Below are positions 18,038 through 43,079 of a DNA stretch of 64,000 bases, piece by piece. Within the stretch, counting starts at the first letter, position 1, and each line of letters starts with the position of its first letter. The DNA is from a bacterium. GTDB lineage: Bacteria > Sumerlaeota > Sumerlaeia > SLMS01 > JAHLLQ01. Made by a program: the position numbers and the translations under genes. The notes below the pieces were generated by a model that was not told the DNA's origin, made no database searches, and saw nothing but the letters and a program-made list of their open reading frames with translations. The DNA lies in the NCBI GenBank assembly GCA_020444065.1, contig JAHLLQ010000001.1, forward strand, positions 682,001 to 746,000. The letters are read 5' to 3'.

Positions 18038-18076
18038 ACGGTGATGAACACGCAGCGGGCGCGCGCATGTCAATCG

Positions 18077-19774: not shown

Positions 19775-20856
19775 TGTTGCGTCGCTTCCTCGCCGGAGAA
19801 GGCCGGCGAACCCGTTTCGAGAAGTCGAAATACCTGCACACGATTGTTGTAGCTGTCGGCCACGAAGAGGAGTCCATCGCTCGCGTCAAATGCCAAACCC
19901 GCGGGCAACCAGAACTCTCCCGGTTCCGGCCCTGGGCCGCCGATGCTCAAAAGCAGGTCTCCGTTGGGACTGAAGAACTGCAGCGCATCGTAAAGGCCTT
20001 CAACGACGATTACGTTCCCGCTGCCGTCGACTGCTACGCCTTTGGGCTTTGAGAACTGGCCCTGCGAATTTCCGATCTCGCCGAACGATTCGAGGTAGTC
20101 GCCGCCAGGAGTGAAGAGTTGCACGCGGAAGTTCATCGAGTCCGTCACCGCTACATTCCCATTCGGCGCGACGGCGATGTGCGTCGGGTAGTTAAATTGT
20201 TCCGGAGCCCCGCCGCGTTCGCCCCAGGTCTGCAGGGTATTCCCTTGCAGGTCCAGGACGTCGACCTGGTGATTAGTAACGTCGACGACATAGACGCGTC
20301 CGCGCTGTGCATCGATGGCAAGCCCGGCCGGTCGCCCAAAGCCATCGGCGAACACACCCTTCCATTCGCCGTCCGGAGCAAACCGTTCAATCGCCTCGAG
20401 GCGTGAGTCGCTGACGAGGATGTCCCCGTTGGGCAACGCCGCAACGCCTACGGGAGACGGCAGCCCACCTTCCAAGTCGTCGCCGATGAACCGATAGTCT
20501 GACTTCGCCCATTCGAAGTAATGCACGCCTTGCCGCGCGGGATCAGTCACGAGCAGGCCGCCATCGGGATGCATTGCGATGGCGTACGGTCGTGCAATCT
20601 GCGAGTCCTTCGCCCCGGCAAGGAAGGTCTTGATGCCGGCGAAACCTGTGGGCGTTTGGTAGAGGTCTTCGTGCGAGCGAATGGACTGCACGTATTCAAC
20701 GCGCGGGGGCAATGGCGCGGGCGGATAGACGAGTTCCGATGCGCCCGCCGGAGGAAAGCCCTCCCAGGGTGCCGATGCGCACGCGCACATCATCATAGCG
20801 CCGGCCAGTAAGCCGACTGCCGCGATGCGTCGAGCGATGTGTGTGGGCGTTCTCAT
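19771..20856 (-). CDS. NHL-repeat beta-propeller lipoprotein
   Basis: A 361-residue predicted lipoprotein: an N-terminal hydrophobic stretch ends in MMMCAC (lipidated Cys 24 or 26). It is followed by ARVEYV-like QSIRSHEDLYQTP and six-bladed-propeller NHL repeats. Blade signatures include GVAALPNGDILVSDSRLEAI, GLAIDAQRGRVYVVDVTNHQ, HIAVAPNGNVAVTDSMNFRV, GVAVDGSGNVIVVEGLYDAL and GLAFDASDGLLFVADSYNNR. Such propellers bind partners or ligands. Here it is coupled by a 4-base overlap to the downstream cytochrome and starts eight bases after the beta-barrel gene. It may dock at the outer membrane with them. A second such protein lies upstream in the same cluster. Confidence 0.88.
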   Translation of the reverse strand: MRTPTHIARRIAAVGLLAGAMMMCACASAPWEGFPPAGASELVYPPAPLPPRVEYVQSIRSHEDLYQTPTGFAGIKTFLAGAKDSQIARPYAIAMHPDGGLLVTDPARQGVHYFEWAKSDYRFIGDDLEGGLPSPVGVAALPNGDILVSDSRLEAIERFAPDGEWKGVFADGFGRPAGLAIDAQRGRVYVVDVTNHQVDVLDLQGNTLQTWGERGGAPEQFNYPTHIAVAPNGNVAVTDSMNFRVQLFTPGGDYLESFGEIGNSQGQFSKPKGVAVDGSGNVIVVEGLYDALQFFSPNGDLLLSIGGPGPEPGEFWLPAGLAFDASDGLLFVADSYNNRVQVFRLLETGSPAFSGEEATQQ

Positions 20857-20864
20857 CGCAGACC

Positions 20865-22957: not shown

Positions 22958-23815
22958 CTACCGATTGACTTTCGGTGGCGCCCCGAGTTCCTCTTGCCGC
23001 GGCTCCTGCTTCGTTGCGCGTTGGCGCAATGCGGCGACCTCATCGCTTCCCTTCGCTTCTTCCGGAAGGGCGTCAATGATCGCCAGCGCTTCCGCTTTCT
23101 CTCCCAGTTCCAGGTGAATCCCAGCGAGTTCAATCTGTGCTTCAGTTGACAGCGCCTGCTCCTCGGCCGCCTTCGCGTAGTACTTCGCGGCGCGCTGCCA
23201 CAAACCGCGCTCCGCCATTCGGCGTCCCATCTGCAGCGCCATGTTCGGCCGCTCGGGCTTCTTGGTGACGGCTTCGGGAAGTTGCACATCCAGGACGCCG
23301 GCCAACGACGTCAGCAGCCACTCGGGCATAGAGTGATCGTAGCCCGGTTGGACGGCGGCGATGTGCTGCGTCTCGTCGACGATCACGATCGAAGGCGTCG
23401 CGATGATGTTGTAGTCGTGATAGGCCTTATCATCGATGTCACGATAGACTGGCCAGTCGGGACCCATAGTCTCGGGAATCTCGCTCTTGTTCTCGCGCGT
23501 GAAGCGCGAATAGATCACTGCCCGCCGATATCCTTCTCTCACCATCGGAAACCGTGTGAAGAGGTCCTCGATGGCCTGAACGGTCTGGGCGGCGTAGCGG
23601 TCTTCCGGCTTCAGGAACAGCAACAGCAGGGGGCTGGTAGTCGCCTGATCGCAGAGATCGACCTCGCCGTCAGTTCCTTCAACGAGCAGAGGAGGCGCCT
23701 TCATACCGACCTTGATGAGAGCCAGTGTCTCCGTGCCTGCCGATGCCGATCCGATTCCCAGCAGCACAATTGCCAGGATCAGAATCGGTAGTCTGCTCTT
23801 GCTGCTGAAGTCCAT
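22958..23815 (-). CDS. Exported thioredoxin-fold protein with TPR-like C-terminus, lacking CXXC
   Basis: A 285-residue protein with a signal peptide (about 1-26). A redoxin-like domain (about 35-185) begins VGMKAPPLLVEGTDGEVDL, contains SPLLLLFLKPEDRYAAQTVQ and has the cis-proline segment NIIATPSIVIVDETQH. The catalytic CXXC expected after the first strand is absent: only one cysteine (VDLCDQ) is nearby. It is therefore unlikely to be a dithiol oxidoreductase. Residues about 200-265 are helical repeats (MAERGLWQRAAKYYAKAAEE, ELGEKAEALAIIDALPEE). It sits in the cluster 11 bases after the 13-15-haem cytochrome. A chaperone or assembly role for cytochromes or the barrel is a guess. Confidence 0.75.
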   Translation of the reverse strand: MDFSSKSRLPILILAIVLLGIGSASAGTETLALIKVGMKAPPLLVEGTDGEVDLCDQATTSPLLLLFLKPEDRYAAQTVQAIEDLFTRFPMVREGYRRAVIYSRFTRENKSEIPETMGPDWPVYRDIDDKAYHDYNIIATPSIVIVDETQHIAAVQPGYDHSMPEWLLTSLAGVLDVQLPEAVTKKPERPNMALQMGRRMAERGLWQRAAKYYAKAAEEQALSTEAQIELAGIHLELGEKAEALAIIDALPEEAKGSDEVAALRQRATKQEPRQEELGAPPKVNR

Positions 23816-23826
23816 GGTTGGCCTCT

Positions 23827-25182
23827 TCAGGGAGCGCTTGATTCAGCATTATCGACCGCGTCTTCTCGATCGTAACTATACGGCACGTGGCAGCCCGTGG
23901 CACAGCCGCCGCCCGTATCGGTCATCGTGTATTCCAACTGCATTTCCCAGCGACCGAACGGAACGACGGAACGAATGTGTTTCGGCTGATTGCTGCCGTG
24001 CTCGTGATGGCAAGCGCGGCACGTGCGGCCCTTTTCGCGATTCACGTGCAGGTAGTGCAGGTTGACCTTGCCGTTCCGGAACCCGGTTTCTTCGGACATC
24101 TCGTCCAGCACCAGTCGCTGATCGTGACAATCGAAGCAGAGCTGGTACTTGTCTTCCGAGTAGGAATCGTAGAAGTCCTCCGGGAAGGCCTTGTCGAGAA
24201 TGAACGAATTATCGGAACCGTGCGCATCGTGACAGGCGGAGCAATTGCCCTGGCGAACGGGGCCGTGCAGGTATTCGAAGTTCTCAACCTGCTCGGCGAT
24301 GTTATCGATCATGCCGTGCGGGCCATCGATGGGCTCGTTGTGGCAGTTCAGGCAAAGATCCTCGGACTTCGCAGCGAGCAGTCGCTCCTGGTTCGACGCG
24401 TGGGAGTCATGGCAATTCTGGCAGGCTTCGCCTTCGACCATCGCCTGGTGCGTGAACTTGAAGGTCTCGGTCTCTTTCAGGAAATCGCCGTGGCATTCGT
24501 TGCAGAGCGCGCGGCCTTCATCGACGAGGAAGTACTCGCGGTCGCCGCCGTGAGGAAGGTGACAGCCGGCGCACTGCTCTTCGACGGGCGGGTGAACGGA
24601 CACGGCGCCTTCAATGCGCTGCTCCATGTCGACGTGACAGCCGGTGCAGAGAGCCGTGCGCTGCTCGACCAGGAGTCCTTCGTATTCCGACTGGTGCGGC
24701 GTGTGACAGGCGAGGCATTCGCCGAGCGCCACCGGGCCGTGCAGGTGCGAGAGACCTTCACGAACGTCCGTGTGGCAGCGCATGCAACCTTCGGCACCGG
24801 CGCCGCCGCGAACGAAGTAACGATTATCCGAGCCGTGAGGATCGTGACAAACCGCGCAGTCCGTCTCGAATGGTGCGTGCTGCACCGGCATGGCAGCTTC
24901 CGCATCGTGACAGACCAGGCAAAGGTCGCGGCCTTCGCCGGCGGCCTCGAAGCGGTGCTCGCCATTGATCGGAATGTGGCAAGGCTCGCACTGGTTCATG
25001 TTCACGGGACCGTGATTGAACTCAAATGCCGTCAAGTCCTGGTGGCATTCCGACGCCGAGCAGCTCTTGTCCGCGGGGAGCATCTTCGGCGCATCGGCAG
25101 CAAATGCGCCGACCGCCAGAAGTAGCGCAACAAGCGCCATGACCGGGAATCGAAGAGTGTGGTGTGCAGCAGAGGTTGTCAT
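23827..25182 (-). CDS. Multihaem cytochrome c, 13 CXXCH plus CX4CH and CX3CH
   Basis: A 451-residue exported cytochrome (signal peptide about 1-29). It opens with CSASECH (CX4CH) and then has CEPCH, CLVCH, CAVCH, CMRCH, CLACH, CTGCH, CAGCH, CNECH, CQNCH, CLNCH, CSACH, CFDCH and CRACH. It ends with CATGCH (CX3CH). Motifs recur about every 25-35 residues, often with DPHG, TPHQ or DAHG following, as in NrfB- and DmsE-like decahaem or doubled-CXXCH proteins. It lacks a membrane anchor, so it is probably periplasmic or exported further. It shares the same layout (CX4CH first, CX3CH last, C-terminal PFGRWEMQLEYT-like segment) with the 360-residue cytochrome later in the window. The ATG chosen has a GGGGAGAAAC ribosome site. 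Confidence 0.92.
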   Translation of the reverse strand: MTTSAAHHTLRFPVMALVALLLAVGAFAADAPKMLPADKSCSASECHQDLTAFEFNHGPVNMNQCEPCHIPINGEHRFEAAGEGRDLCLVCHDAEAAMPVQHAPFETDCAVCHDPHGSDNRYFVRGGAGAEGCMRCHTDVREGLSHLHGPVALGECLACHTPHQSEYEGLLVEQRTALCTGCHVDMEQRIEGAVSVHPPVEEQCAGCHLPHGGDREYFLVDEGRALCNECHGDFLKETETFKFTHQAMVEGEACQNCHDSHASNQERLLAAKSEDLCLNCHNEPIDGPHGMIDNIAEQVENFEYLHGPVRQGNCSACHDAHGSDNSFILDKAFPEDFYDSYSEDKYQLCFDCHDQRLVLDEMSEETGFRNGKVNLHYLHVNREKGRTCRACHHEHGSNQPKHIRSVVPFGRWEMQLEYTMTDTGGGCATGCHVPYSYDREDAVDNAESSAP

Positions 25183-25205
25183 TGGTGTTTCTCCCCTGAG
25201 TAGGA

Positions 25206-27329
25206 TCATCCGAAGAACTGTGTAAACTCGGTGCGAATTGCGAGATAGATCAAAACAATACCACTGACGAATGCGATGATGCCGAGGATCGCACCGAGAA
25301 TGCGCCATTTCAGCGCCATCGGCTCGACGATGCGAGACTCGAGTATACCTTCTTTGACAAGCCGGTCGTACTCCTGACCGCGCTCTTCCTTCATTTCTTC
25401 TTCTGACATCTGGCCGGTGAACATCACCATATCGACAGGGAACTTCTCTGGCCGAAGGTGCGTATTGAAGAAGTGCACGAGGAAGATAACCGATGCGGCG
25501 AGCAGAGCTTCGATGCTGTGGACCACCATCGCGCAATTCAGTACCCAGCCGGGCAGCCAACGCGTAAACAGCATCGGGAACCAGAGCATCAGTCCGGTGC
25601 CGCCAATCACGAACACGCCCCAGATTTCACCGAAGTAGTCGAACTTCTCGAAGTAGGTCCAACGATCGAATTTCGGGCGCGGCCCAAGCCAGAAGAACCA
25701 ACGAACCATCGCGATGAAGTCCTTGAGGTCGCGCAAGGAGAAGAGCATTGAATCCGGCCCGATGATATAGCGCCAGATTGGACGCGGACACTTCTTCCAG
25801 AAGAAGTAGACCAGGAAAGCCGCGTGCGTGCCGGCGTACATGAACGTGATGACCGCCAGAACGCGGTGGATCATTCCCATCACGGGGATGCCGCCGAACA
25901 GGTTGGCGAACTGATGCGCCCACTCGGTGTAGCTGTACTTGAGCGGGAAGCCGGTCGCCACCAGGCCCATGAAGCTGATGATGATCAACGCGTGCGTGAA
26001 GCGGTGAATCCAACTGAAGCGCTCGATCATGCGTTCGCCGTTCGACTGGCCATGCGGACCGCGCGGGTTCTTCAGGCGACCGACCAGTGTGCGCTGGAAC
26101 CACAAGAACGTGTGGGGGATGAAGACCGAGAGCGTTCCGAGAAGCAACGTCGTCATCACGACGAACGTCCAGAACACAATCGGGTTCTTCTCGCGATCGG
26201 TGAAGTCGACGTGCGCGATGTACTTGACGAAGTTCGCGTTCACGTTGTCGTGGCACTTACTGCACGTTTCCTGGAGGTTCTCCGCAGCAACATGAGAGCG
26301 GGGATCGTCCGGCGGAAGAATGTCGTGAGCGCCGTGGCAACTCGAACAGACCGCCGCGTTGCCGTAGCCAAGCTCAACGGCCTTGCCGTGATAGCTCAGC
26401 ATGTACGTGCGGCCGAGATCGATGTGGCAGTGCGAACACTCCTGCGCCACATCCATCAGGAACGGCTCGCCGATCGGCTTGATCCCGTGGCTGTGGTGAC
26501 ACTTCGTGCAGGTGGCGGCTTCTTCATCGCCGTCCGCCAGATGCTGGCCGTGGACGCTGGTGTAGTAGACGTCCTCAACACCCTCGTGGCACTTGCCGCA
26601 CGTATCGGGAACATTGAACGCATTCAGCGGGCTCTCGGGATCCTCCGCTGGCAGCATCTCATGGTGACCATGGCAGTCGACGCAGGTCGCTGTCAGTGGG
26701 AGGCCCTTGAGGTAGAGCGCCTCGCCGTGGGCGTTGTCACGATAAGACTCGCCCGGATTGAACGGGTGTATGGCCTCTTCATCGTGGCAGGTCATGCAGT
26801 TTTCGACCGATTGCAAAGCCTCGGTGTACGTTCGAGGATCGGAGAACAGGGTAATCTCGTGCGGATCACCGTGGCAGTCGTTGCAGTTCGGTCGGCGAAG
26901 CCCGTCGTCTACCTTGCTTCCGTGCGGACCGGCGGCCACGGCATCCTGCGTCTCGACGTGACAGTCGGAGCAGTTCAGCGCGGCAAGGCGCTGGCTGTGG
27001 GGAAGCGACTCGATGCCGGAGTGGCAGTCGGTGCAGTTCAGCCCGGCGTGCGCCGAGTGCTTCAGCGATTCGTCGGAGATGTAGAGCGCCGCGATCTCAT
27101 CCTCGGGGCGCATCACGCGGGTTTCACCCTCGCGGATGCGAACCATGCCGGCCAGGCCACTCGGGCTTGTCTGGGCGATCCAACTCTGCCCGTGGCACTT
27201 CATGCACTCCTTGTCCTCGAATCCCGCGGCCCAGCCGGGATGGCTGAGCGCGAGCAAGAGAACAACGGCTACAAGCCGGAGGATGTTTGTCCGATTTTGG
27301 GTCAAGAAGTGTGAGGTGTGTCTTGTCAT
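25206..27329 (-). CDS. CbcL-like fusion: 11-haem c-type domain plus membrane cytochrome b
   Basis: A roughly 707-residue inner-membrane protein. After an N-terminal signal/anchor (about 17-36) come eleven CXXCH sites: CMKCH, CTDCH, CSDCH, CNDCH, CMTCH, CVDCH, CGKCH, CTKCH, CSHCH, CSSCH and CSKCH. A membrane domain of several helices follows with likely haem-b histidines in WIHRFTHALIIISF, GMIHRVLAVITFMYAGTHA and VVHSIEALLAASVIFLVHF. This matches hydrogenase/formate-dehydrogenase-type cytochrome b. The architecture is that of Geobacter CbcL (a nine-haem domain plus HydB-like cytochrome b), a quinol:cytochrome c oxidoreductase used in low-potential Fe(III) reduction. Two extra haem sites are present here. 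ATG preferred; a GTG nine bases earlier is possible. Confidence 0.88.
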   Translation of the reverse strand: MTRHTSHFLTQNRTNILRLVAVVLLLALSHPGWAAGFEDKECMKCHGQSWIAQTSPSGLAGMVRIREGETRVMRPEDEIAALYISDESLKHSAHAGLNCTDCHSGIESLPHSQRLAALNCSDCHVETQDAVAAGPHGSKVDDGLRRPNCNDCHGDPHEITLFSDPRTYTEALQSVENCMTCHDEEAIHPFNPGESYRDNAHGEALYLKGLPLTATCVDCHGHHEMLPAEDPESPLNAFNVPDTCGKCHEGVEDVYYTSVHGQHLADGDEEAATCTKCHHSHGIKPIGEPFLMDVAQECSHCHIDLGRTYMLSYHGKAVELGYGNAAVCSSCHGAHDILPPDDPRSHVAAENLQETCSKCHDNVNANFVKYIAHVDFTDREKNPIVFWTFVVMTTLLLGTLSVFIPHTFLWFQRTLVGRLKNPRGPHGQSNGERMIERFSWIHRFTHALIIISFMGLVATGFPLKYSYTEWAHQFANLFGGIPVMGMIHRVLAVITFMYAGTHAAFLVYFFWKKCPRPIWRYIIGPDSMLFSLRDLKDFIAMVRWFFWLGPRPKFDRWTYFEKFDYFGEIWGVFVIGGTGLMLWFPMLFTRWLPGWVLNCAMVVHSIEALLAASVIFLVHFFNTHLRPEKFPVDMVMFTGQMSEEEMKEERGQEYDRLVKEGILESRIVEPMALKWRILGAILGIIAFVSGIVLIYLAIRTEFTQFFG

Positions 27330-27350
27330 TTCGTTCACTGTGTTTTCCGC

Positions 27351-27947
27351 CTAGTACATCCGGTGGGGGTCGTGACATGCCGTGCAATCGTCCAAATTGG
27401 GCACGTCGTGGTATTCTTCATCATCGGCCAAATCGGCTCGGTGACAATACAGGCACAGATCGGGGATCGGCTCCTGCAGCAGATGCTCGTACTGTGACTG
27501 GTGCGGATTGTGACAGGGAACGCAGGTTCCGATATTGATCGGTCCGTGATCCCATCCCTCCTCGCGGCGCTGATCCTCGTGGCATCGATCGCACAACGAT
27601 GCGTCGCGCGGCATTTCCTCAAAACTCTGGCGCGGGTCGTGGCACTGAATGCACTTATTCTCCGCTACGGGCTGATGGATCGAGAGAAAGACCGGCTGCG
27701 GCGATTCGATCGGGCCCCGTTGCTCGCGCATCGCACGCATCGAAACCTCGAATGGCGTCAGCGATGTCGAGGCGTACTCCATATCTCCCGGCCGTCCATT
27801 CTCGACACCTTCGGGCACGGGAACCCCGTCAAAGAAAAAGCTCAACACGCGATATCGCGTTGTAGGCGCACAAGCCACCAACAACACCGAAAGCGACATC
27901 ACAAGACCCGCCAACCAGGCAGACCGCGTGTGAGGCAGCCGAGTCAC
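27351..27947 (-). CDS. Pentahaem cytochrome c lipoprotein
   Basis: A 198-residue protein whose signal sequence ends in the lipobox LLVAC (lipidated Cys 26). It has five CXXCH sites: CIQCH, CDRCH, CVPCH, CLYCH and CTACH, the last followed by DPHRMY at the C-terminus. The GTG start overlaps the stop of the upstream NHL lipoprotein gene and is preceded by a strong AAGGAGG site. The frame upstream of it is only the shadow of the NHL gene. This is the second cytochrome-NHL pair in the cluster joined by a 4-base overlap. It is probably anchored to the outer membrane facing the periplasm or surface. Downstream, the CbcL-like gene follows within about 20 bases. Confidence 0.9.
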   Translation of the reverse strand: MTRLPHTRSAWLAGLVMSLSVLLVACAPTTRYRVLSFFFDGVPVPEGVENGRPGDMEYASTSLTPFEVSMRAMREQRGPIESPQPVFLSIHQPVAENKCIQCHDPRQSFEEMPRDASLCDRCHEDQRREEGWDHGPINIGTCVPCHNPHQSQYEHLLQEPIPDLCLYCHRADLADDEEYHDVPNLDDCTACHDPHRMY

Positions 27948-29071
27948 ATCCCCTCCTTGGTGTCGCGAGCGACCGCGAAGAAGTTGATCAGCGCCTGTCC
28001 GGACTGATTCACGACGATTACGAGCGACTCGGGATCGAATCCCTCTTCCAGGCGCTCGTTCAGCCACGGAATATCCTTGGGCCAGGGCCCGACGCTGACA
28101 CCGGCGGGGAGCTCAATATTCCCGCGATTCGGCCCCGGGCCGCCGAAGAACAGCAACAGGCGACCGAGCGGGTCGAAGATCTGCACGTTCGCAAACCGTG
28201 AGTCCGCCACGTAGATTCTCCCGTGATTATCCAGGGCCATGCCCTTGGGCCATGCGAAGCGGCCAAGTTCCTGACCGTGGCCGCCGAAGACCAGCAGCGG
28301 CTCGCCCGTCGGAGAGAGCTTCTGAACGCGGAAGTTGCCGGTATCCACAACGCACAGGTTGCCGTACTCGTCAGTTTCGACCTGAGTCGGCATGAAGAAC
28401 TGACCCGGCTGGTCGCCGAGTTCACCGATGGTGCGGATCAGAGACCCGTTCTCCTGGTCCCAGACCTCGATTTCGTTCTCGGGGAAATCGCAGACGAAGA
28501 GAACACCGTCCCCGACGGCAACATCGACGGGCTTGACCTCGCCGGGCCGACCGAAGGCGGCCAGGAAGTTCTCGTCCGCATCGTAGACGAGCACGGCGCC
28601 GCGGACTTTGTCCGCGATGTAGAAGCGCCCCTGGCGGTCAATGGTGATGTTGTTGGGCTGGCTGATCTTGCCAACGCCCTGGTCACCGCCGAAGAGCCGA
28701 GCCTCGCCGGTCTTCAAATCATACACCGTGATGGTATTGAGGACCGTGTCGCAGATGTAGAGCCGCGTATCGACCAAGAGAGTTGTGTACGGCTTGACGA
28801 GCGGGAAGTTGGCCGGCTCATCGCCGAGGATGAAGCTGGCGAAACCGCCGCGCTGCTTCGGAATGTCGAGTTGGGAGGAAATCTGCCCGAGGTATTGCAC
28901 GCGGGCGATTTCCGGGGGCGGCGGAAAGAGAACGAGGATCTGTTCCGATTCGTTCTTAGTCGGGGCACAGCCGCTCAAAATCAGCGAGGAAAGCGCAGCC
29001 AGCAAGCAAAGCGCGGCGCGGGCTCGTCCTCGGGTGAAATCTTTGAAAGAACTGTGGTGAAAGTATCTCAT
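27944..29071 (-). CDS. NHL-repeat beta-propeller lipoprotein (second copy)
   Basis: A 375-residue predicted lipoprotein with lipobox LILSGC (Cys 35). PPPPEIARVQYLGQISSQLD follows, a short motif shared in type with the other NHL lipoprotein (PPRVEYVQSI). Five to six NHL blades come next, for example NITIDRQGRFYIADKVRGAV, VAVGDGVLFVCDFPENEIEV, QVETDEYGNLCVVDTGNFRV and GMALDNHGRIYVADSRFANV. It starts a transcription block after the terminator at 29.1 kb, although readthrough is possible. Its 3' end is fused by a GTGA overlap to the pentahaem lipoprotein. A role as docking propeller for a cytochrome is inferred from that coupling. An in-frame upstream extension of 27 residues lacks a signal and is rejected. 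Confidence 0.88.
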   Translation of the reverse strand: MRYFHHSSFKDFTRGRARAALCLLAALSSLILSGCAPTKNESEQILVLFPPPPEIARVQYLGQISSQLDIPKQRGGFASFILGDEPANFPLVKPYTTLLVDTRLYICDTVLNTITVYDLKTGEARLFGGDQGVGKISQPNNITIDRQGRFYIADKVRGAVLVYDADENFLAAFGRPGEVKPVDVAVGDGVLFVCDFPENEIEVWDQENGSLIRTIGELGDQPGQFFMPTQVETDEYGNLCVVDTGNFRVQKLSPTGEPLLVFGGHGQELGRFAWPKGMALDNHGRIYVADSRFANVQIFDPLGRLLLFFGGPGPNRGNIELPAGVSVGPWPKDIPWLNERLEEGFDPESLVIVVNQSGQALINFFAVARDTKEGM

Positions 29072-29143
29072 CGCCAAGTGTGCCCCCCGAGAGCATTCGG
29101 TCCTCGTATTGAAAGGATCATGCCCGACGGGGGCAAAAAGAAT

Positions 29144-29186
29144 CGGGGGCAAACCCGGAGCCAGTAAACTCCCGGGTTTGCCCCCG
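29144..29186 (-). terminator. Strong terminator after the tetrahaem cytochrome gene
   Basis: A perfect 15-bp stem CGGGGGCAAACCCGG / CCGGGTTTGCCCCCG with a 13-base loop. On the minus strand it is followed by ATTCTTTTT. It separates the giant/tetrahaem cytochrome block from the NHL-CbcL-barrel block. Confidence 0.85.
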
Positions 29187-29257: not shown

Positions 29258-29932
29258 TTACTTATTGTGACAGGTCAGGCACAGTTGGCTGTTTGTCCGG
29301 GTGATTACCAGCAGGCTGTCATTGACGGCGGCAGCGGCAGGGCCGTTGTGCACGTCGTGGCAGGAGCTGCATTCCAACTGGTCGTTGAACAACAAGTCGT
29401 CGGCGATCGTGCTGCCGAGGCCGGATGCGCTGGAACTTGGCATAAACAACTCGCCGTCCTGGGTCGCCAGGGGGTCGTCGTAGGTGAATGCGATCGGGTG
29501 ATCGTTGGTCAATTCATCTGCGCCGATGGCCGATGGAAGGCCGATCGTGATGATGCCGGTGTCGCCGCCGTAGCTGTCCACGGCCACAGTACCATCGTGA
29601 CAGCTGAGGCACAGTCGAGACTGGCCGTTGGGCTGCGAAGTGGTGGCATCCATGGTCGGGCTGTTGTAGAGTTGATAGGTCTTGTTGGTCAGTGCGTGGT
29701 TCCACAGTGGAGCATCGGTGACGGTGGTATCGGCACCGTGCGTGGTGTGGCAGAAGATGCAGATCTGGCCGGTTGCGTCGAGCGTCGAGAAGTCGTGAGC
29801 CGACCCCTGAATCGTTGCATTTGTTGTCGTTGTCATCGCCAGGAAGCCGGCGACGGCGCCAATGGCCGCTGCACCTAACCAGGGGCGAATGCCCAGAAGT
29901 CTGCGGATAACATTGCGTGAAGATTGAATCAT
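29258..29932 (-). CDS. Tetrahaem cytochrome c, exported
   Basis: A 224-residue protein with a long N-terminal export signal (hydrophobic about 17-35) and four CXXCH sites: CIFCH, CLSCH, CSSCH and CLTCH. The spacing and the surrounding text (CIFCHTTHG, then PLWN, LCLSCHDGTVAVD, DHPIAFTY, then CSSCHDVHNGP) closely mirror the first four sites of the 565-residue cytochrome in this cluster. They may derive from one module. It is a probable periplasmic electron carrier. The ATG giving MIQSSRNVIRR has a GGAG-type site; a longer frame starts with unconvincing residues. A strong terminator follows. Confidence 0.9.
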   Translation of the reverse strand: MIQSSRNVIRRLLGIRPWLGAAAIGAVAGFLAMTTTTNATIQGSAHDFSTLDATGQICIFCHTTHGADTTVTDAPLWNHALTNKTYQLYNSPTMDATTSQPNGQSRLCLSCHDGTVAVDSYGGDTGIITIGLPSAIGADELTNDHPIAFTYDDPLATQDGELFMPSSSASGLGSTIADDLLFNDQLECSSCHDVHNGPAAAAVNDSLLVITRTNSQLCLTCHNK

Positions 29933-30001
29933 GGGGTCCACCTCACTCCTTGCTTTATAGTAGGAATTTCTATCCATTTCGTATATCGGGACATGCCCGA
30001 A

Positions 30002-30403
30002 TCAGACTGAACTCTGACGATTCTTGAGCAAGCTCTCTGCCACTTCGCAAAACTCGCTCTGGCAGAAATCCCTTGCGAAGTAGTACCGGACACCCTCTGA
30101 GACAATCTTGACACCGAACTCGCGAGAGAAGTCGCAGGTGAAGACCACGATTGGCATGCGGAAGCGTGCCTTTCGAATTCGCCGAATCGCCCGAAGGCCA
30201 CCGTCCAGATCGCTCCCAACATCGAGAACTACAAGGCCCGGGACTTCCGGCCGAGGAGACCAGAACCGCTCAGTCATGAGCTGCTCGGGATTTACCTCGG
30301 TCACAGAATCGGCGAGGGGACGGAGGAGCGGCTCGATCATCTGAACCAGGTCGTTATCCTGGCTGACAATCCAGACCGTTCCACCGTCCCCACCGATCAT
30401 CAT
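30002..30403 (-). CDS. Degenerate CheY-like receiver domain protein
   Basis: A 133-residue stand-alone receiver-like protein. The central strand has LVVLDVGSDLDGG, with an aspartate in the phospho-acceptor position, then MPIVVFTCDFSREFG at the conserved Thr/Ser strand. The usual Lys-Pro of the last conserved strand is replaced by FARDF, and the N-terminal acidic pocket is only partly kept (SQDND). Phosphorylation may be weak or absent. A GGAGG site lies nine bases before the ATG chosen. It is placed between the giant cytochrome and the tetrahaem cytochrome genes in the same direction, so it is probably cotranscribed with them. It has no output domain and is a possible adaptor. Confidence 0.7.
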   Translation of the reverse strand: MMIGGDGGTVWIVSQDNDLVQMIEPLLRPLADSVTEVNPEQLMTERFWSPRPEVPGLVVLDVGSDLDGGLRAIRRIRKARFRMPIVVFTCDFSREFGVKIVSEGVRYYFARDFCQSEFCEVAESLLKNRQSSV

Positions 30404-30476
30404 CTTGCGCAACCTCCGCGTGCACGTTGTTGCTATCGTGGAGGGTTTGCTATCCTCCGTTTACCGTTCCTGGTGC

Positions 30477-33400
30477 TTAGCGCACCAACCACGTCTCCGT
30501 GATCACACCACCGAAGCCGTCCTGAACCGGACCGCGAAGGTCCATGCTCGGGAAGTCGTTGGTGATGACGTTTCCAGTGAGCGGATAGTAAGCCCGCTGC
30601 AGGGACTGGACGGTGAAGGAGGTGTTATGGACGCCGAAGCTTCCGTCCTGGGCGGCCAGGTTATAGTTCCACAGAACTGCCTTCTGTGTATCGGTCAGAG
30701 CGTTGAAGTCCGGCGCGTGAAGCGGTCCGTACTCCTCATCGTAGGTCGTGCCTGGCACGTCCGCGATGAACTCGTCGCGAAGGATCAGCATCAGGCCACG
30801 AACTTCGGTCTGTGTTCCCTCCACGAGACCGTTGCCGTCGTAGTCGCCGTGGGACGGATAGTCGAGAGACTGGATGTCCAGGTGGCAACGCTTACAGGCG
30901 TTCTCGTGGTTGGTAACGTCGTCGCTGAGGTCCTCGGTACCCATCGTGTCACGAAGACTGAAGGTGTGAGAGCCAACAAGCGGCGGTGTGGTGACGCCCG
31001 GGCCTGACTCAGACGGCGGGGCCATGTGGCAGGCAACGCAGGTGTCTTCAACGGCCACGTAGTGCGGTGAGCTGGGAGCCCAATCAAGGCCGAAGGAGAC
31101 TGCGGACGTTCCAATGAGGACTTCGCCCTGCGGTCCGCGGTGCGGGCCGTGAGACTCTGTCGGATAAACGTCATCGGCATCGCCGCGACGCGAGTTGTGG
31201 CAGCGCATGCACAGACCGCCCAGGCCGACGCCGTAGGTGTCGGTCCCGTTCGGGAGTTCCAGGTCGCCTTCGAGACGCAGCTGATGCGGAATGTCGCTGA
31301 AGTGCGGATCGTGGCAGGTCGAGCAGGTCTGGCCGATCGGATTATCGATCGGGTTGGCGGGAAGTCCCTTGACCTGGACGTCGACGAAGCCGTCGCCAGA
31401 GTGGCACTTGATACAGCCGCTACCGGTGGACGCATGGCCCGGGGTAGCCGCACTGTGACCGCTGTTCTCCCACTGCCAGACGAGCTGCTGGTAGCCATTG
31501 TTCGAGTCGTGGCAGCGCGCGCACTGCTCGACGTTCAGGTTCACGCCATCAACACCCTTTTCGTTTCCAGCACGGAGCACGTAGGGGTGAATCTCGCCGG
31601 GACCGTGGCAGTTTTCGCACTGGATCGAGGCGTGGCTCTTGAGTTCTTCGGGCAGATTGTCAAACTGCGGGATGCCCGATGTGACGGCATCATGAACCAT
31701 CTGCGGGATCTGATTGAGGTCGAACTTGATGTCTTCGGCGATGTCGTCGAAGCCATTGTTGTCAGCCAGCGGATTCTGGTCGAAGCCGACACTGTGGCAC
31801 TCGAGGCAGGACACGTCGTAGTGCGAGCCGTATTCGCCATTGAGGTGCTTCTGTAGCTTCTGTGCGTGGTTAGACTGCACCCAGTCGCTCGCAACCTTCA
31901 GGCGATCCTGGCCAGCGCTGTCGCCGTGGCAGAAGCCAGTGGCGCACTCGGGCAGGTGAGCGCCGTCGTCTTCGAAGACGCCTGCGCCCTGCCAGTTGGC
32001 GGCGTAGATGACCTGCTCATAGAGCGTCTCGGACAGGCCCTCGCGGACGTCCGTGTGGATCTCGAGGTGGATCTTGTAAGTGCCCTTCTTGTCTGGACGG
32101 AACGTCACGAAGGTGTTGTCGATCTCGGTCAGTGTGGCAACCGAGTCAGCGGGCGCTTCAGCGATGCTCCACGTGTAGCCGGTGATGGCGCGGTGGACGG
32201 TGCCACCAGCCTCCACGGCGTGCATGTAGATCAGGTTGCCGATACCAACTGTATCGAGGCCAGAAGAGGCTTCGGTGTAGTTGCCGCTCTGATCCAGAGC
32301 GAGGTCACGCGGGGACACACCTTCGATAACGATGTGGGCCAGCGATTCGGGCGCCGGAGTTGGGGTCGCAGTCGGAGTCGGGCTCGGAGTCGGAGTCGGG
32401 GTCGGAGGCAGCGTCGTGGGCTGCACCGGGCCGCGAAGGTCCATCTCGGGATAGTCGTCAGTGATCGGGCGGTTGAAGATGCCGAAGTAGGCACGCTGCA
32501 GTGACTGGACAGCGTAAGACGTGTTGTGAATACCACGGCTGCCGTCGTCGACGACGTAGTTGTAGTTGTAGCGAGCGTACTTGAGACCGTCGGGAAGCGT
32601 GGCGAAGTCGCCTTGGCTGATGCCAATGGTGCCGTCGCTGCCCAGGGAGAACTTCGAACCATGGGTCGGGTCGTTCAACAGACCGTCGGCGATGATCTCG
32701 AGCAGGCCTTCGACTTCGGACTGAATGCCTTCGACCGTGCCGTCGCCATCGTAATCGCCACGAGCTTCACGGTCATAGGTGGTCGCGAGTTCGGAGTGGC
32801 ACTCGCCGCAGGCGTTCACGACGTTGAGCGTGTCGTCGCCTTCGTCGGCTGTGCCATTGGTGTCACGCATCGAGTAGGTGTGCTCACCCACAAGCGGCGG
32901 TGTCAGGCCGCTGCCCACGCCGTCCGCCATGTGGCAGGCAACGCAGGTGTCTTCGACGATCGTCGTGTGGGCCGAGTTTCCAACGAAGTCCAGCCCGAAG
33001 TCCGCGGCGTTCTTGCCGAGCAGCATGTCAGCCTGCGGGCCGTGGTGGGCACCACGGAAGCTGCCGAGCGCCGTCGCGTCCACGTCTTCGACGCGCGAGT
33101 TGTGGCAACGGCCGCAAAGGCCGCCCAGGCCCGGATCTTCGAACGTATCGCCGGAGGGCAGATCGAAGTCGCCGGCCAGGCGAAGCTGATGCGGGTTGTC
33201 CGAGTTATGGGGATCGTGGCAGCCGGTACAGGTCACGCCAAGAGCACCGTGCAGATCGACCGGCGCATCGCCGTCGACCTGGATGTTCTTGAAGCCTTCG
33301 GCTGTGTGACAGGCCGTGCAACTGCCGGTCTCGCCGGCGTGTCCGCCCGCGGCTTCGGCAGAAATCATGTGAGCCGAAGTGCCCCACTGATAGAAGCCCT

Positions 33401-34340
33401 GCTGGTGGCCGGAAGCGGAATCGTGGCACTGTGCGCACTGGCCGAGACCGAAGTCCACGCCGGCGATGCCCGAGTCATCTTCACGGATGTTGCCGAGGTG
33501 CTGAGAACCCGGACCGTGGCAGTTCTCGCACTGAATCGAGCCATGGCCCTGAAGTTCGGCGGGAAGGTCGGCCCAGTGGGGATCGTTGTTGTTGTAGGCA
33601 TCGTTGACCAGGTCCGGAATGTTCGACAGCGGATAGCTGAGCATGTCCGCGATGTCGTCGAAGCCGTTGTTCACGGCCGCCGGGTTCAGATTGAAGCCGA
33701 CGGTGTGACACTCGAGGCACGATTCCGAATAATGGTTGGTTGTCTCGCCGTTCAGGTCCCGCTGGAACTTGACGGCGTGTCCCGATGTGATCCAATCGCC
33801 CAGCTTGTTCAGCCGATCGTTGGCGTTGTCATCGTGACAGCAACTGGTGCCGCAATTGGGGGGATAAGGTGCCGGGGGTTCCCAAGTGTTAAAAACACCT
33901 GCGCCCATCCACTCGCCCGCCCGAATGAGCACATTGACCGATTCGGTCGGGTTTGCGCTCCCGTCCAACGGGGTCAGGGTCACCGTGAAGTCCCCTCGCA
34001 TGTCGGGACGGAAGGTCACCATATCGCCCGTATTGCTGCTCAGGGCAGCGGACGAGCCGACCATGGAGGGCGTCAGGGCCCACTCATAGCCGGAGATTGT
34101 TGCCCCGGAAGCCGGATCGGCCTCCAGGTAGACTAGCTGCCCGATACCGACGATCGGCAGGCCTGAGTAGACCTCCGTGAACTCGTCATCGGGTGCGGCA
34201 GCGATGTCACGCGGCGAAACCGCCAGCAGTTCAATGTCTGCCAACGGTTGCGCGGGGGCTGCGGAAACCAGCAGGCTGCTCAACAGCCCGGCGGCTCCCG
34301 CGGTTACTAGTGCTTGGAGCAAATTCTTGCGGCTTTTCAC
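30477..34340 (-). CDS. Giant internally duplicated multihaem cytochrome c with Ig/PKD-like domains
   Basis: A 1287-residue exported protein (signal about 1-30) made of two homologous halves joined by a Thr/Pro linker (about 640-672). Each half begins with an Ig/PKD-like domain of about 115 residues (SPRDIAAAP..., SPRDLALDQ...; both contain VTFRPDMRG or VTFRPDKKG). Nine haem-like sites follow: first CX4CH (CGTSCCH, CATGFCH), then CLECH, CENCH, CAQCH/CARCH, CTACH/CIKCH, CTGCH/CSTCH, CGRCH/CMRCH, CVACH and CGECH/CKRCH. Each half closes with an EF-hand-like loop (DYDGDGTVEG, DYDGNGLVEG) and an MDLRGPVQ segment. In total that is 16 CXXCH plus two variants. GTG start with a GGAGGG site. It is probably extracellular or surface-exposed. 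I recognise no named homologue. Confidence 0.9.
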   Translation of the reverse strand: MKSRKNLLQALVTAGAAGLLSSLLVSAAPAQPLADIELLAVSPRDIAAAPDDEFTEVYSGLPIVGIGQLVYLEADPASGATISGYEWALTPSMVGSSAALSSNTGDMVTFRPDMRGDFTVTLTPLDGSANPTESVNVLIRAGEWMGAGVFNTWEPPAPYPPNCGTSCCHDDNANDRLNKLGDWITSGHAVKFQRDLNGETTNHYSESCLECHTVGFNLNPAAVNNGFDDIADMLSYPLSNIPDLVNDAYNNNDPHWADLPAELQGHGSIQCENCHGPGSQHLGNIREDDSGIAGVDFGLGQCAQCHDSASGHQQGFYQWGTSAHMISAEAAGGHAGETGSCTACHTAEGFKNIQVDGDAPVDLHGALGVTCTGCHDPHNSDNPHQLRLAGDFDLPSGDTFEDPGLGGLCGRCHNSRVEDVDATALGSFRGAHHGPQADMLLGKNAADFGLDFVGNSAHTTIVEDTCVACHMADGVGSGLTPPLVGEHTYSMRDTNGTADEGDDTLNVVNACGECHSELATTYDREARGDYDGDGTVEGIQSEVEGLLEIIADGLLNDPTHGSKFSLGSDGTIGISQGDFATLPDGLKYARYNYNYVVDDGSRGIHNTSYAVQSLQRAYFGIFNRPITDDYPEMDLRGPVQPTTLPPTPTPTPSPTPTATPTPAPESLAHIVIEGVSPRDLALDQSGNYTEASSGLDTVGIGNLIYMHAVEAGGTVHRAITGYTWSIAEAPADSVATLTEIDNTFVTFRPDKKGTYKIHLEIHTDVREGLSETLYEQVIYAANWQGAGVFEDDGAHLPECATGFCHGDSAGQDRLKVASDWVQSNHAQKLQKHLNGEYGSHYDVSCLECHSVGFDQNPLADNNGFDDIAEDIKFDLNQIPQMVHDAVTSGIPQFDNLPEELKSHASIQCENCHGPGEIHPYVLRAGNEKGVDGVNLNVEQCARCHDSNNGYQQLVWQWENSGHSAATPGHASTGSGCIKCHSGDGFVDVQVKGLPANPIDNPIGQTCSTCHDPHFSDIPHQLRLEGDLELPNGTDTYGVGLGGLCMRCHNSRRGDADDVYPTESHGPHRGPQGEVLIGTSAVSFGLDWAPSSPHYVAVEDTCVACHMAPPSESGPGVTTPPLVGSHTFSLRDTMGTEDLSDDVTNHENACKRCHLDIQSLDYPSHGDYDGNGLVEGTQTEVRGLMLILRDEFIADVPGTTYDEEYGPLHAPDFNALTDTQKAVLWNYNLAAQDGSFGVHNTSFTVQSLQRAYYPLTGNVITNDFPSMDLRGPVQDGFGGVITETWLVR

Positions 34341-34583: not shown

Positions 34584-36065
34584 CTACTCCCCTGTCTCTG
34601 TGCCCGTCCGGGCTGCTTTGCGCTGCTCCTGAATGACTTCCAGGTCGATATTGTGGCGATGAATCATGCGATAGAGTGTGCGACGGTGACAGCCGGCAGC
34701 CTCGGCCGCCCGCGAGATGTTGAAGTTATTGTCGACCAGCAGCGAGATCAGGTACTCGCGCTCGAAGCTGCCAACCATGCGATCCTTGATGTCGAACATC
34801 GAATCGCTGCCGGGATCCTGAGGCTGTGCCCCCGGGATGCCCTGAATATCGCGGACTTCGAGGGGGAGATCGCCGGGTTGAATCTCCGCCGCGCCGGTCA
34901 GTGTGGCCGCATGCTCGACGACGTTCTGAAGCTCGCGCACATTGCCCGGCCAGCGATAGGCTCGCAGTTTCTCGAGCGATTCGACGGAGATATTGATCGA
35001 TGGCAGATGATTGTCGCGGGTGAACTGGCGCAGGAAGTGGTTGGCCAGCAGCGGGACGTCCTCGATGCGGTCGCGCAGCGGAGGCAGATGCAGTGTCACG
35101 ACGTTCAATCGATAGTAGAGATCGCCGCGGAAGGTCTTCTCGCTCACGGCCTCGACAAGATCGCGATTTGTGGCTGCGATCACGCGAACGTTGACATCGA
35201 TTTCCTCTCGCCCGCCGATGCGCCGGAACCGGCGTTCCTGGAGGACGCGAAGCAGCTTGGATTGCAGCGAAATGGGCATTTCGCCGATCTCGTCGAGGAA
35301 GAGCGTGCCCTTGTGGGCAAACTCAAAGAGGCCTTTCTTCTCCGAAATGGCCCCTGTGAAGGCGCCCTTCGTGTAGCCGAACAGCTCGCTTTCCAGTAGA
35401 TTTTCGGGGAGGCTGGCGCAATCGACGGGGACGAAGATCTCGTTCCGGCGCGCGCTGAGGCGGTGAATGGCACGAGCGATGACTTCCTTGCCAGTGCCGC
35501 TTTCGCCGGTCACCAGCACGTTGACGTCGGTCCGCGAGACCTTGCGAACGAGTTCCAGAACGCGCTCCATGGCCGGACTGATGCCGATGATCCCTTGGCG
35601 CCATCCCTTCGATTCCTCATCCTCGGGAACGGGCGTCGCCGCTTCTTCCTGGCTGAACAGGCGGCGGGACAGCGCCTCCTGGATCTTCGTCATCAACTCG
35701 TTCATCGAGAACGGCTTGGTCAGGTAATCGGCCGCGTGGTGTTTCATGGCCTCGACGGCGCTCTCGATCGATCCAAACGCCGTCACGAGAATGACCGGGA
35801 TGTCCTTGTCGAACCGATGGACGGATTCGAGCACTTCCATCCCCGACCCGTTCGGCATCATCAGGTCGGTGATAACCAGATCGGGCCGGAAGTCCGTCAG
35901 AATCGATTCGATGCGGGTCGGATCGTCGGTCGTGACGCACTCGTGACCAGCGCGGCTCAACAGGCGCCGGTAGTTGTTAAGCATCTCGACTTCGTCATCG
36001 ACCACGAGGATGTGAGTCGCGCCGGCCGCGTTCTTTCCGTTGGTTCGATTGCCGTTCTTGTTCAT
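34584..36065 (-). CDS. Sigma-54-dependent response regulator, NtrC family
   Basis: A 493-residue transcription activator. The receiver domain carries ILVVDDEVEML and the phospho-acceptor in LVITDLMMPNGSG. The AAA+ domain has the Walker A GESGTGKEV (about 185), the sigma-54 contact loop GAFTGA (about 236-241) and the second Walker region GTLFLDEIGEM. The C-terminal Fis-type helix-turn-helix reads NISRAAEAAGCHRRTLYRMI. Its ATG overlaps the stop of the histidine kinase gene (ATGA), so the two form one coupled operon. It would activate sigma-54 promoters. A candidate sigma-54 promoter lies before the 9-11-haem cytochrome gene of this window. Downstream is a terminator, then the giant cytochrome gene. 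Confidence 0.95.
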   Translation of the reverse strand: MNKNGNRTNGKNAAGATHILVVDDEVEMLNNYRRLLSRAGHECVTTDDPTRIESILTDFRPDLVITDLMMPNGSGMEVLESVHRFDKDIPVILVTAFGSIESAVEAMKHHAADYLTKPFSMNELMTKIQEALSRRLFSQEEAATPVPEDEESKGWRQGIIGISPAMERVLELVRKVSRTDVNVLVTGESGTGKEVIARAIHRLSARRNEIFVPVDCASLPENLLESELFGYTKGAFTGAISEKKGLFEFAHKGTLFLDEIGEMPISLQSKLLRVLQERRFRRIGGREEIDVNVRVIAATNRDLVEAVSEKTFRGDLYYRLNVVTLHLPPLRDRIEDVPLLANHFLRQFTRDNHLPSINISVESLEKLRAYRWPGNVRELQNVVEHAATLTGAAEIQPGDLPLEVRDIQGIPGAQPQDPGSDSMFDIKDRMVGSFEREYLISLLVDNNFNISRAAEAAGCHRRTLYRMIHRHNIDLEVIQEQRKAARTGTETGE

Positions 36066-37531
36066 TTCCTGGTCTTCCTCACCGGCAGCCATACGGAGAC
36101 TTCACTCCCCTTGCCCGGCTTGCTTCGGACCTCGATCCGTCCGTCGTGCGCTCGCACAAGGCGCTGGCAGACCGCCAGGCCCAGTCCGGTTCCGCCCTTG
36201 TGGAATTTCGTGGAGAAAAACGGCGAGAAGATGCGGCTGACGTCTTCATCCGACATGCCGCACCCGGTGTCGGAAACGCTGAGCAGGACGCCGTCATTCT
36301 GTTCATACGCCGTGATCGTCAGGGTGCCGCCCTGCTCCATGGCGTCACGCGCGTTGAGCACCAGATTCAGCAGGACCTGCTGCAACTGGATCGAATCGCC
36401 CTGAACGGTAGGAAGATCCTGCAGAATCCGAACTTCGGTCTCTATCTCTTCTCTTTTCAATGCTTTACGGACCATCCCAAGCGTTTCTCGGATGATATCG
36501 GGGATCCGCACCTCGGTACGATTCAGCGGCTGGGGACGCGCCATATTAAGCAGGTGGTCGATGATATGCCGCAGCCGACTGGCCTGCGTGTGGACGACCT
36601 CGAAATCTTCGGTCAGCTCCTCTTCGGAGAGACTGCCGATCTCCATATTTATCAGTTCCAGCCGGCCCGTGATGATCCCCAGCGGGTTCTTGATCTCGTG
36701 CGCGACACTGGCGAGCAACTCGCCGAGCACGGCAAGCTTGTCAGCTTGCTGGACTTGGCGCTGCGCCTCCAGGTTCTCCTGGTACTTGAGTTGCAGCAAA
36801 GAAATCAAACGGTTGAAGTTCTCGGCCACTCGCGTCAGCGGGTCCGGGCAGGCAAGCAGGAAGACTTCACACTTGCTGCAGTAGCGGAACTTCGAAATCG
36901 GATCCTTCTCGTCCGCATGATCGGGGCAGAGGGTATTGGGCAATTCCCAACACCGCAGGCTCTCGCCGTTGAAGGCCGGACATTCGGGCCGGGTGCAGTC
37001 CTTCACGTCCTGACATGGCTTAAGGTTATCGTTCGTCAGTCGAAGCCGAAGGATGTTTCCGTTCGGACCTGTCTCGAGATACTGGATGACCTTGCCGACC
37101 AGGTTCTCGACCTCTCGATCGAGCATCTTCACTGCACCCTGGCATCCCTCGTCCGTAGGGACAGGCTCCATCTCTTCGACGATCAGCAGGCTGTTGTCCT
37201 GGGGGTCGCGCATCGGCCACGCGCGAACATGGAAGAAATTCGCGCCATCGAACTCGTGTGGGGCGCGGTAGAATCGCTGTGCCCGAGAGTGGCCACGCAA
37301 GACCTGGCCGACCGGCCAAACGACCCGCTCGGCTCCGTCCGGTGGCATATCCAGAATCTTCCTGTTCTCATCTCGATAGGCCGGATAGGCTTCCCGGCGG
37401 TCGGGCGTGTTGTCCCAGATGACGTTCAGGCGCACATCGAAGATGCGCACGGCACGAGGCTGCGCGCTCCAATAGGCTTGGAGGAGACCAAAGGAATAGT
37501 TTTCTCTAATCGAGGGGTCGATTGTTGCCAT
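36062..37531 (-). CDS. Soluble sensor histidine kinase with cysteine-rich domain
   Basis: A 489-residue kinase without evident membrane helices. The N-terminal part (about 12-115) is PAS-like (AVRIFDVRLNVIWDN, and FHVRAWPMRDPQDNSLLIVE). Next is a cysteine cluster (about 174-230): CQDVKDCTRPEC, CWELPNTLC, YCSKCEVFLLAC. This resembles the Cys-Trp-containing metal or redox-binding segments of delta-proteobacterial sensors. HisKA follows with SVAHEIKNPLGI, then N-box LLNLVLNARDAME and ATP motifs DTGCGMSDED and GGTGLGLAVCQRLV. The cluster may bind iron-sulfur or another metal and sense redox state. It is coupled to the downstream NtrC-type regulator. ATG chosen over a GTG 33 bases upstream. Confidence 0.92.
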   Translation of the reverse strand: MATIDPSIRENYSFGLLQAYWSAQPRAVRIFDVRLNVIWDNTPDRREAYPAYRDENRKILDMPPDGAERVVWPVGQVLRGHSRAQRFYRAPHEFDGANFFHVRAWPMRDPQDNSLLIVEEMEPVPTDEGCQGAVKMLDREVENLVGKVIQYLETGPNGNILRLRLTNDNLKPCQDVKDCTRPECPAFNGESLRCWELPNTLCPDHADEKDPISKFRYCSKCEVFLLACPDPLTRVAENFNRLISLLQLKYQENLEAQRQVQQADKLAVLGELLASVAHEIKNPLGIITGRLELINMEIGSLSEEELTEDFEVVHTQASRLRHIIDHLLNMARPQPLNRTEVRIPDIIRETLGMVRKALKREEIETEVRILQDLPTVQGDSIQLQQVLLNLVLNARDAMEQGGTLTITAYEQNDGVLLSVSDTGCGMSDEDVSRIFSPFFSTKFHKGGTGLGLAVCQRLVRAHDGRIEVRSKPGKGSEVSVWLPVRKTRK

Positions 37532-37867
37532 CGTTATCCGGGAACCCAGCGCGGGCAGAGCCACCTATGCTTCAGTGCGTATATTACCAAGTAGGCGGCG
37601 AATGCAAGCGCAAGTCAGTGTGACATCGTTGCCTCGCTGTTGCTCCTTGCGCATATCACGATATTTATCCTCCGGATTGTCCGAACTGGAGTCAAGGGAA
37701 GCGTTCCAAAAAGTGGGACAGAGATGTCACTGTAGGCGGAACCGTGGGCGACTCGAATGGCACGGGGTAACGGGAACCTCATCATATACGAAGACGAAAG
37801 GCACTTGCGCTCGGGGGGGGAGTCTTGTCAGCGTGTGGGATTGGATGAGAAAGGAAGAAGACGTAAT
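37532..37867. other. Divergent intergenic region, kinase operon versus CARF gene
   Basis: About 335 bases separating divergent genes. It contains the right copy of the CCAAAAAGTG motif and a run of eight G residues (37813-37820) 48 bases before the CARF gene start. I see no convincing promoter pair. An in-frame GTG extension of the CARF gene reaches into it but has no family similarity. Confidence 0.5.
37706..37721 (+). repeat. CCAAAAAGTGGGACAG motif, right copy
   Basis: It differs by one base from the copy beyond the other end of the kinase-regulator operon. Both lie on the same strand and in non-coding DNA. It could be a regulator site or part of a dispersed short repeat. Confidence 0.45.
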
Positions 37868-42853: not shown

Positions 42854-42997
42854 GTTCACTCTCCCAGAATGTGATGGGCGGATCCCGTTGAAGATGGACC
42901 GGATTGGACCGTCTGAAGTTTGGAACCGCCCGATGCTCTGTCCAGAGCGCATTCGCCGTCAGCGGGTGTCAATTGCAACCTCGGAACACCCAGCAAG

Positions 42998-43035: not shown

Positions 43036-43079
43036 CAATTGTCGGCTTGTCTTCCGAGGCGATGAAATCGCCTGCGGGA

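Follow-up and report, generated by a model that had tools for sequence, protein, structure and literature searches.

What role could a single polypeptide bearing eighteen haem-attachment sites play in a bacterium of an uncultured phylum? The question is raised by a gene of Candidatus Sumerlaeota that lies within a 64,000-nucleotide stretch of contig JAHLLQ010000001.1 (assembly GCA_020444065.1, positions 682,001 to 746,000), hereafter called the window. An earlier note, made from the DNA sequence, had described the product of this gene as a tandem-duplicated exported cytochrome of up to 18 haems with adhesion-like domains, which could act as a surface wire or as a substrate-binding terminal reductase. 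The analyses reported here favour the latter role: the giant protein is probably the outward-facing terminal cytochrome of a porin-cytochrome conduit for extracellular electron transfer, in which two tethered heads of the OcwA type replace MtrC. The homologous family and the conduit operon described below are additions to that first reading. Feature coordinates are collected in Table 1.

The giant protein starts with a Sec-type signal (MKSRKNLLQALVTAGAAGLLSSLLVSAAPAQ), as expected for an exported protein, and continues with two halves that carry the same parts in the same order: a PKD-type domain, a CX4CH motif, eight CXXCH motifs, a DxDG[DN]G loop, C-terminal helices and the word MDLRGPVQ. 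The two halves could be aligned end to end by BLASTP (288/621 identical residues, 46%; 513 bits; expectation value (E) 1e-180), so that the tandem duplication extends over their whole length. The haem cores are 51% identical, the C-terminal parts 47% and the PKD parts 35%, and the words CLECH, CENCH, CVACH, VSPRD, DYDG[DN]G and MDLRGPVQ are common to both halves. As the codon-aligned halves share just 56% DNA identity, the duplication or fusion is, judged by this divergence, an old one; the same value, together with the occurrence of the full double open reading frame (ORF) in independent metagenome-assembled genomes, rules out a duplication introduced by assembly. No second copy of the giant gene was found in its own genome, where the other matches sit at the linker region. 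The EF-hand-like loop is indeed present in both halves; however, the usual acidic residue at loop position 12 is absent (D-Y-D-G-D-G-T-V-E-G-I-Q), and for this reason we regard calcium binding only as plausible. A tryptophan located 4–5 residues before the C-terminus (WLVR, WAVH, WRVR, WALYE, WADYR, WLYYE, WTLYE) is kept in Sumerlaeota proteins in which the module is the last part, and is missing after module A; this tail (window 30480-30500) is a putative sorting or docking element.

Sixteen CXXCH and two CX4CH motifs give a total of 18 sites, whereas 2000 shuffled versions of the protein contain 0.09 on average and never more than 3. An alignment of 40 modules puts the CX4CH motif of Sumerlaeota where relatives from other phyla have their first CXXCH; in one relative, L029, a CX3CH motif stands at this site. 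Because CX4CH is aligned to the first CXXCH of relatives with nine CXXCH motifs, nine haem sites per module are supported, in agreement with the 18 haems put forward as an upper figure, and haem attachment at CX4CH is predicted. The motif of site 1 therefore varies between CXXCH, CX3CH and CX4CH inside one family, and scans for CXXCH alone miscount the haems. Motifs of the CX3CH/CX4CH type (CATGCH, CSASECH, CTLRCH) also occur in the MtrA-like and the second paired-CXXCH cytochromes of the same cluster, and such extended motifs may be frequent in the genome as a whole.

To which known cytochromes is the module related? A profile of 40 module sequences compared with solved structures matched OcwA (6i5b) with an E value of 6.3e-28 and nine colinear haem sites, site 2 being aligned only within a low-scoring segment. 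Weaker matches followed, to 6qvm (E 5e-22) and then to NrfA, octahaem nitrite reductase and MccA. As CXXCH-rich proteins attract each other, the search was redone with the C-terminal region only, which is free of haem motifs: OcwA was then the sole significant match (E 4.7e-6), and MccA, 6qvm and octahaem nitrite reductase followed without reaching the threshold. In the structure model, the C-terminal helices and their D-x-S-x-G-x-H-N signature are as in the three-helix bundle of the OcwA type. These sequence comparisons place the module with the OcwA-type nonahaem cytochromes. OcwA is a cell-surface nonahaem terminal reductase of Thermincola potens (PDB 6I5B) and a dimer in the crystal and in solution; an open site lies beneath an HH pair at haems 2 and 5, and haem 9 is a His/Met haem (PMC6703420). 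The kinship is not wholly unforeseen, since OcwA had already been placed among the nonahaems of Gram-negative bacteria (PMC7829351). In contrast to OcwA, which has a single module and a Gram-positive host, the giant protein has two modules in one chain, a PKD domain in each, CX4CH at site 1, a changed haem-2 pocket and an MtrAB-like conduit nearby. The structure 6QVM, deposited as 'Multiheme cytochrome cf', is probably OmhA of Carboxydothermus ferrireducens or a close relative; it shares the superfamily and the HH-P-Q pocket motif, whereas OmhA has 11 haem sites and a Gram-positive host and, according to its description, does not associate with porin complexes.

Motifs were assigned to the OcwA pockets by alignment, adjusted manually for haem 5. 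Both HH pairs (THH and HHGPQ) are kept in most distant relatives. The haem-2 pair of Sumerlaeota is mostly [HFY]QQ, reading HQ in module A and YQ in module B of the window; the haem-5 pair is kept in module A, whereas module B reads HR and the B modules of genomes G001 and G003 read HY. This divergence of the pocket motifs suggests that modules A and B are not equivalent. The Pfam model PF22113 (MtrC/MtrF domain II/IV) also matches the giant protein. Membership of the MtrC/MtrF family was nevertheless rejected, as the match is local, each module has nine sites against the ten haems in two pentahaem domains of that family, and no MtrC, MtrF or OmcA structure was retrieved by the module profile at E<=0.01.

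The first ~115 residues of each half had been read as an Ig/PKD-like domain. An AlphaFold2 model of the module, built from a 40-row alignment (mean predicted local distance difference test (pLDDT) 86.8; predicted template-modelling score (pTM) 0.83), predicts that the N-terminal ~112 residues of the mature half form a beta-sandwich (pLDDT >90 at most positions) rather than an unstructured segment. Foldseek matched this model to PKD and Fn3-type domains (best E 1.4e-3, none <=0.001), a profile of the N-terminal region matched the PKD-domain protein KIAA0319L (E 8e-4) and the collagenase ColH (E 1.5e-3), and several family members are matched by Pfam PKD models. By model and profile, the N-terminal domain is thus PKD-like. 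The term 'adhesion-like' holds as a resemblance to PKD and Fn3 folds; ligand binding is putative.

All genes of the operon, from the histidine kinase to the last paired-CXXCH cytochrome, are on the strand of the giant gene. The block from the kinase or regulator to the MtrA-like cytochrome is kept in G001, G003, G027 and G031, which represent several Sumerlaeota families, and partly kept in G006, G018 and G021. The operon encodes an MtrA-like periplasmic multihaem cytochrome whose match is chain A of 6R2Q, an entry of the Mtr complex in which this chain evidently carries a wrong molecule name. It also encodes a predicted large beta-barrel (AlphaFold2 pLDDT 85.3, pTM 0.69), whose top Foldseek match is MtrB (6r2q_B, E 3.1e-10; next barrel, 1.4e-8). 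Like MtrCAB of Shewanella (PDB 6R2Q), the cluster combines an MtrA-like cytochrome with a barrel that is MtrB-like in its predicted fold; in contrast to MtrCAB, its terminal cytochrome is not MtrC, and the barrel, which looks larger than MtrB, shows no similarity to it that could be detected in sequence. The barrel family is present in 12 of the 61 genomes searched, all within the class, and the barrel model contains a small internal domain near residues 380-430. A Cys-rich segment of the upstream histidine kinase (DCTRPECPAF...CW...CPDH...CSKCEVFLLACPD) could, from its sequence, sense redox state or a metal. No good sigma-54 promoter consensus was found upstream of the giant gene within the window; weak GG-N10-GC elements upstream of the gene in relatives are candidates for such a promoter. 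A terminator-like hairpin before the giant gene (34455-34435) was set aside, as the hairpin count of the scan is at chance level.

We wondered how the single and double forms of the module are distributed, single-module homologues having been anticipated by the earlier note. Full double ORFs are present in the window's own genome (G000), in G001, which belongs to the same family, and in G003; G025 has a nearly complete one, ended by the contig end and with a very short linker. In G006 the giant gene, broken at two contig ends, is probably double as well; one piece groups with the A modules and the other with the B modules. G027 and G031 have a single-module gene at the operon position of the giant gene, and in G018 one lies ahead of the same downstream genes, so that both forms occur at one position of a conserved operon in Sumerlaeota. 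Starred branches of the tree indicate that the separation of A and B is older than the split of G001 and G003 from G006; the placement of the window's A and B modules with those of its relatives is neither supported nor rejected by the tree. Outside Sumerlaeota, the full-length PKD-nonahaem module was found in Fidelibacterota (Marinimicrobia), Bacteroidota, Ignavibacteriota, Calditrichota, Verrucomicrobiota and Acidobacteriota. Two single-module genes adjoin in L045, L055 and L064, an arrangement that represents a possible route to the fused form. In another relative (L028:4612-8112, from G021), the nonahaem module is split by a haem-binding domain of the ethylbenzene-dehydrogenase type (PF09459, E 4.5e-24).

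The relatives also bear on localization. Por_Secre_tail was above its Pfam cut-off in 8/8 single-module relatives of the Fibrobacteres-Chlorobi-Bacteroidetes (FCB) type, the proteins scanned being L044, L045 (twice), L048, L055, L060, L075 and L029, the last one marginal. These type IX sorting tails support export of the FCB-type relatives beyond the outer membrane. Por_Secre_tail has no match in the window's genome; seven secretin matches were found there, which makes a type II-like route possible for the giant protein.

Taken together, these observations suggest the following path. Electrons would exit the quinone pool through the membrane protein that combines a cytochrome b-like part with multiple haems, the putative quinol oxidase, and would be relayed over the periplasm by multihaem carriers. 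The MtrA-like cytochrome within the MtrB-like barrel would cross the outer membrane and hand electrons to the two tethered OcwA-type nonahaem heads at the cell surface. Outside the cell, minerals, shuttles, other cells or oxyanions would accept the electrons. The PKD domains would serve as spacers or as substrate- or surface-contact domains, and the doubled chain would form a covalent two-headed terminal reductase, which by analogy may be the counterpart of the OcwA dimer.

Several results weigh against this proposal. The giant protein has neither a lipobox, the lipoprotein anchor of MtrC, MtrF and OmcA, nor a type IX tail that would account for its route to the surface or its anchor there. 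The haem-2 HH pair of OcwA is replaced in Sumerlaeota by [HFY]Q or other residues. No haem protein was retrieved by Foldseek with the module model among the 50 matches listed, nor OcwA with the haem core model among the matches listed; the fold of the haem core is thus not independently confirmed by fold comparison, and kinship with OcwA rests on profiles. Finally, the barrel has no significant match in Pfam or among PDB sequences, and because its template-modelling score against MtrB is a modest 0.43, the modelled resemblance is one at the level of class.

We therefore asked whether other roles account better for these data. One is a conductive wire, with the 18 haems in a continuous chain or the protein polymerised into a nanowire. 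One chain does hold all 18 sites, and in OcwA the nine haems lie close to each other (PMC6703420). However, between the two haem cores lie a Pro/Thr linker and a PKD domain of ~115 residues, which makes a continuous intramolecular wire less likely; the length of the linker is not conserved, as seen in G025, and no nanowire cytochrome (OmcS, OmcE or OmcZ) appeared among the matches of the module profile to solved structures. We consider this wire, the first of the two roles suggested earlier, very unlikely; its alternative, a terminal reductase, is better supported by the OcwA group, the sorting tails and the MtrA- and MtrB-like partners. Terminal reduction might also be enzymatic, the giant protein being an exported catalyst that reduces nitrite, hydroxylamine or a different oxyanion, rather than chiefly an outlet for electrons to the outside. 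The superfamily includes NrfA, octahaem nitrite reductase and MccA, to which the profile links the C-terminal helical region and several haem sites, OcwA slowly reduces nitrite and hydroxylamine (PMC6703420), and module A keeps the haem-5 HH motif. However, the giant protein differs from these enzymes by its haem number, its added PKD domain and the absence of the catalytic CXXCK motif of NrfA; the loss of the haem-2 pocket in Sumerlaeota and the altered haem-5 pair (HR/HY) in the B modules of G000, G001 and G003 argue against a specialised oxyanion enzyme, and the transmembrane conduit encoded in the operon would be superfluous for a periplasmic one. This role appears quite improbable.

The same conduit might also run inward and feed the respiratory chain with electrons taken from Fe(II), minerals or partner cells. 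MtrAB-type conduits can work in either direction. Terminal oxidases are reported in some Sumerlaeota (PMC8092238), whereas the best relatives with data, OcwA and OmhA, are outward reductases; NtrC-type control is neutral on direction. Inward flow is in our view unlikely, and we retain the outward-facing terminal reductase as the probable role of the giant protein.

Table 1. Features of the giant cytochrome gene and of its operon (window coordinates; aa, residues of the giant protein; AF2, AlphaFold2; TPR, tetratricopeptide repeat).
Feature	Position	Strand	Basis
Giant 18-haem double-module cytochrome	30477..34340	-	GTG start, 1287 aa; motif counts, self-alignment
Sec-type signal peptide without lipobox, aa 1-31	34248..34340	-	Sequence
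Module A PKD-type beta-sandwich, aa 31-145	33906..34250	-	AF2, mostly pLDDT >90; PKD/Fn3 matches by fold and profile
Module A haem core, nine haem sites, aa 146-515	32796..33905	-	Motifs, module alignment, profile match
Module A haem site 1, CX4CH (CGTSCCH), aa 163-169	33834..33854	-	Column of CXXCH in distant relatives, CX3CH in L029
Module A C-terminal region, aa 516-640: DxDGDG loop, helices with D-G-S-x-G-I-H-N, MDLRGPVQ	32421..32795	-	Model, profile
Thr/Pro linker, aa 641-665	32346..32420	-	Sequence; low-complexity repeat in DNA
Module B PKD-type domain, approx. aa 666-784	31989..32345	-	Alignment to module A
Module B haem core, nine haem sites, approx. aa 785-1153	30882..31988	-	Motifs, module alignment
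Module B haem site 1, CX4CH (CATGFCH), aa 799-805	31926..31946	-	Module alignment
Module B C-terminal region: DxDGNG loop, MDLRGPVQ, conserved Trp-containing tail TETWLVR	30480..30881	-	Sequence, relatives compared
Histidine kinase with Cys-rich segment, upstream partner	36062..37564	-	Synteny
NtrC-type sigma-54 response regulator	34584..36092	-	Synteny
Receiver-like protein (response regulator)	30002..30412	-	Weak Response_reg match below Pfam cut-off; synteny
Tetrahaem cytochrome	29258..29977	-	Motifs, synteny
NHL beta-propeller lipoprotein	27944..29152	-	Sequence
Pentahaem lipoprotein cytochrome	27351..28067	-	Sequence
Multihaem (11 CXXCH) and membrane cytochrome b-like protein, probable quinol oxidase	25206..27338	-	Cytochrome b by inspection; quinol role inferred
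MtrA/DmsE-like multihaem cytochrome, true start inside ORF	23827..25560	-	6r2q chain A, E 1.2e-9; TIGR03508, E 2e-42, below its cut-off
Thioredoxin-like/TPR exported protein	22958..23815	-	TPR matches; thioredoxin-like by inspection only
Large outer-membrane beta-barrel, MtrB-like	20865..22928	-	AF2, about 28-30 long strands; best PDB fold match MtrB 6r2q_B
Second NHL-repeat protein	19771..20979	-	Sequence
Paired-CXXCH cytochrome, 11 CXXCH	18077..19774	-	Motif count

Other genes of the genome were recorded. A HemN-like radical SAM gene directly follows the cytochrome cluster (16856-18073, minus strand), and a stand-alone Cas02710/Csm6-type HEPN protein (PF09670, E 9e-23) is encoded divergently from it (37757-39271, plus strand). 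Further paired-CXXCH cytochromes are encoded in the window at about 55352-56434 (plus strand) and on contig C6 of G000 at 297-306 kb and 354-356 kb, two of them in very long frames of 1179 and 1397 aa. The two 722-aa ORFs at 40784-45248 were compared and are unrelated to each other.

What do these results add? An OcwA-type surface reductase and an MtrAB-type conduit are already known kinds. Within the open-licence literature searched, what is new is the fusion of a PKD domain throughout a family and how widely this family is spread, together with the doubling of the module, the variation of the haem motif to CX3CH or CX4CH, and an OcwA-type head combined with an MtrAB-like pair in Sumerlaeota; no paper linking multihaem cytochromes with PKD domains or type IX secretion was found in this literature, and the main genomic study of Sumerlaeota makes no mention of extracellular electron transfer (PMC8092238). 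A broader statement, to which we give about an even chance, is that this uncultured phylum has a hybrid conduit, its MtrA-like/MtrB-like pair, with a barrel of about 28-30 strands that has no sequence relative in the databases searched, being capped by a covalent double OcwA-type 18-haem reductase instead of MtrC, and that this conduit is part of a pattern of PKD-bearing surface terminal reductases of the NrfA/OcwA superfamily over FCB bacteria, Verrucomicrobia, Acidobacteria and Sumerlaeota. We thus propose a complete candidate extracellular electron-transfer conduit for Sumerlaeota and a widespread, as yet unnamed PKD-nonahaem family linked to OcwA. If the proposal is correct, extracellular respiration would gain a phylum and a new 18-haem outer part, and the duplicated form would provide a testable natural experiment on why surface reductases dimerise.

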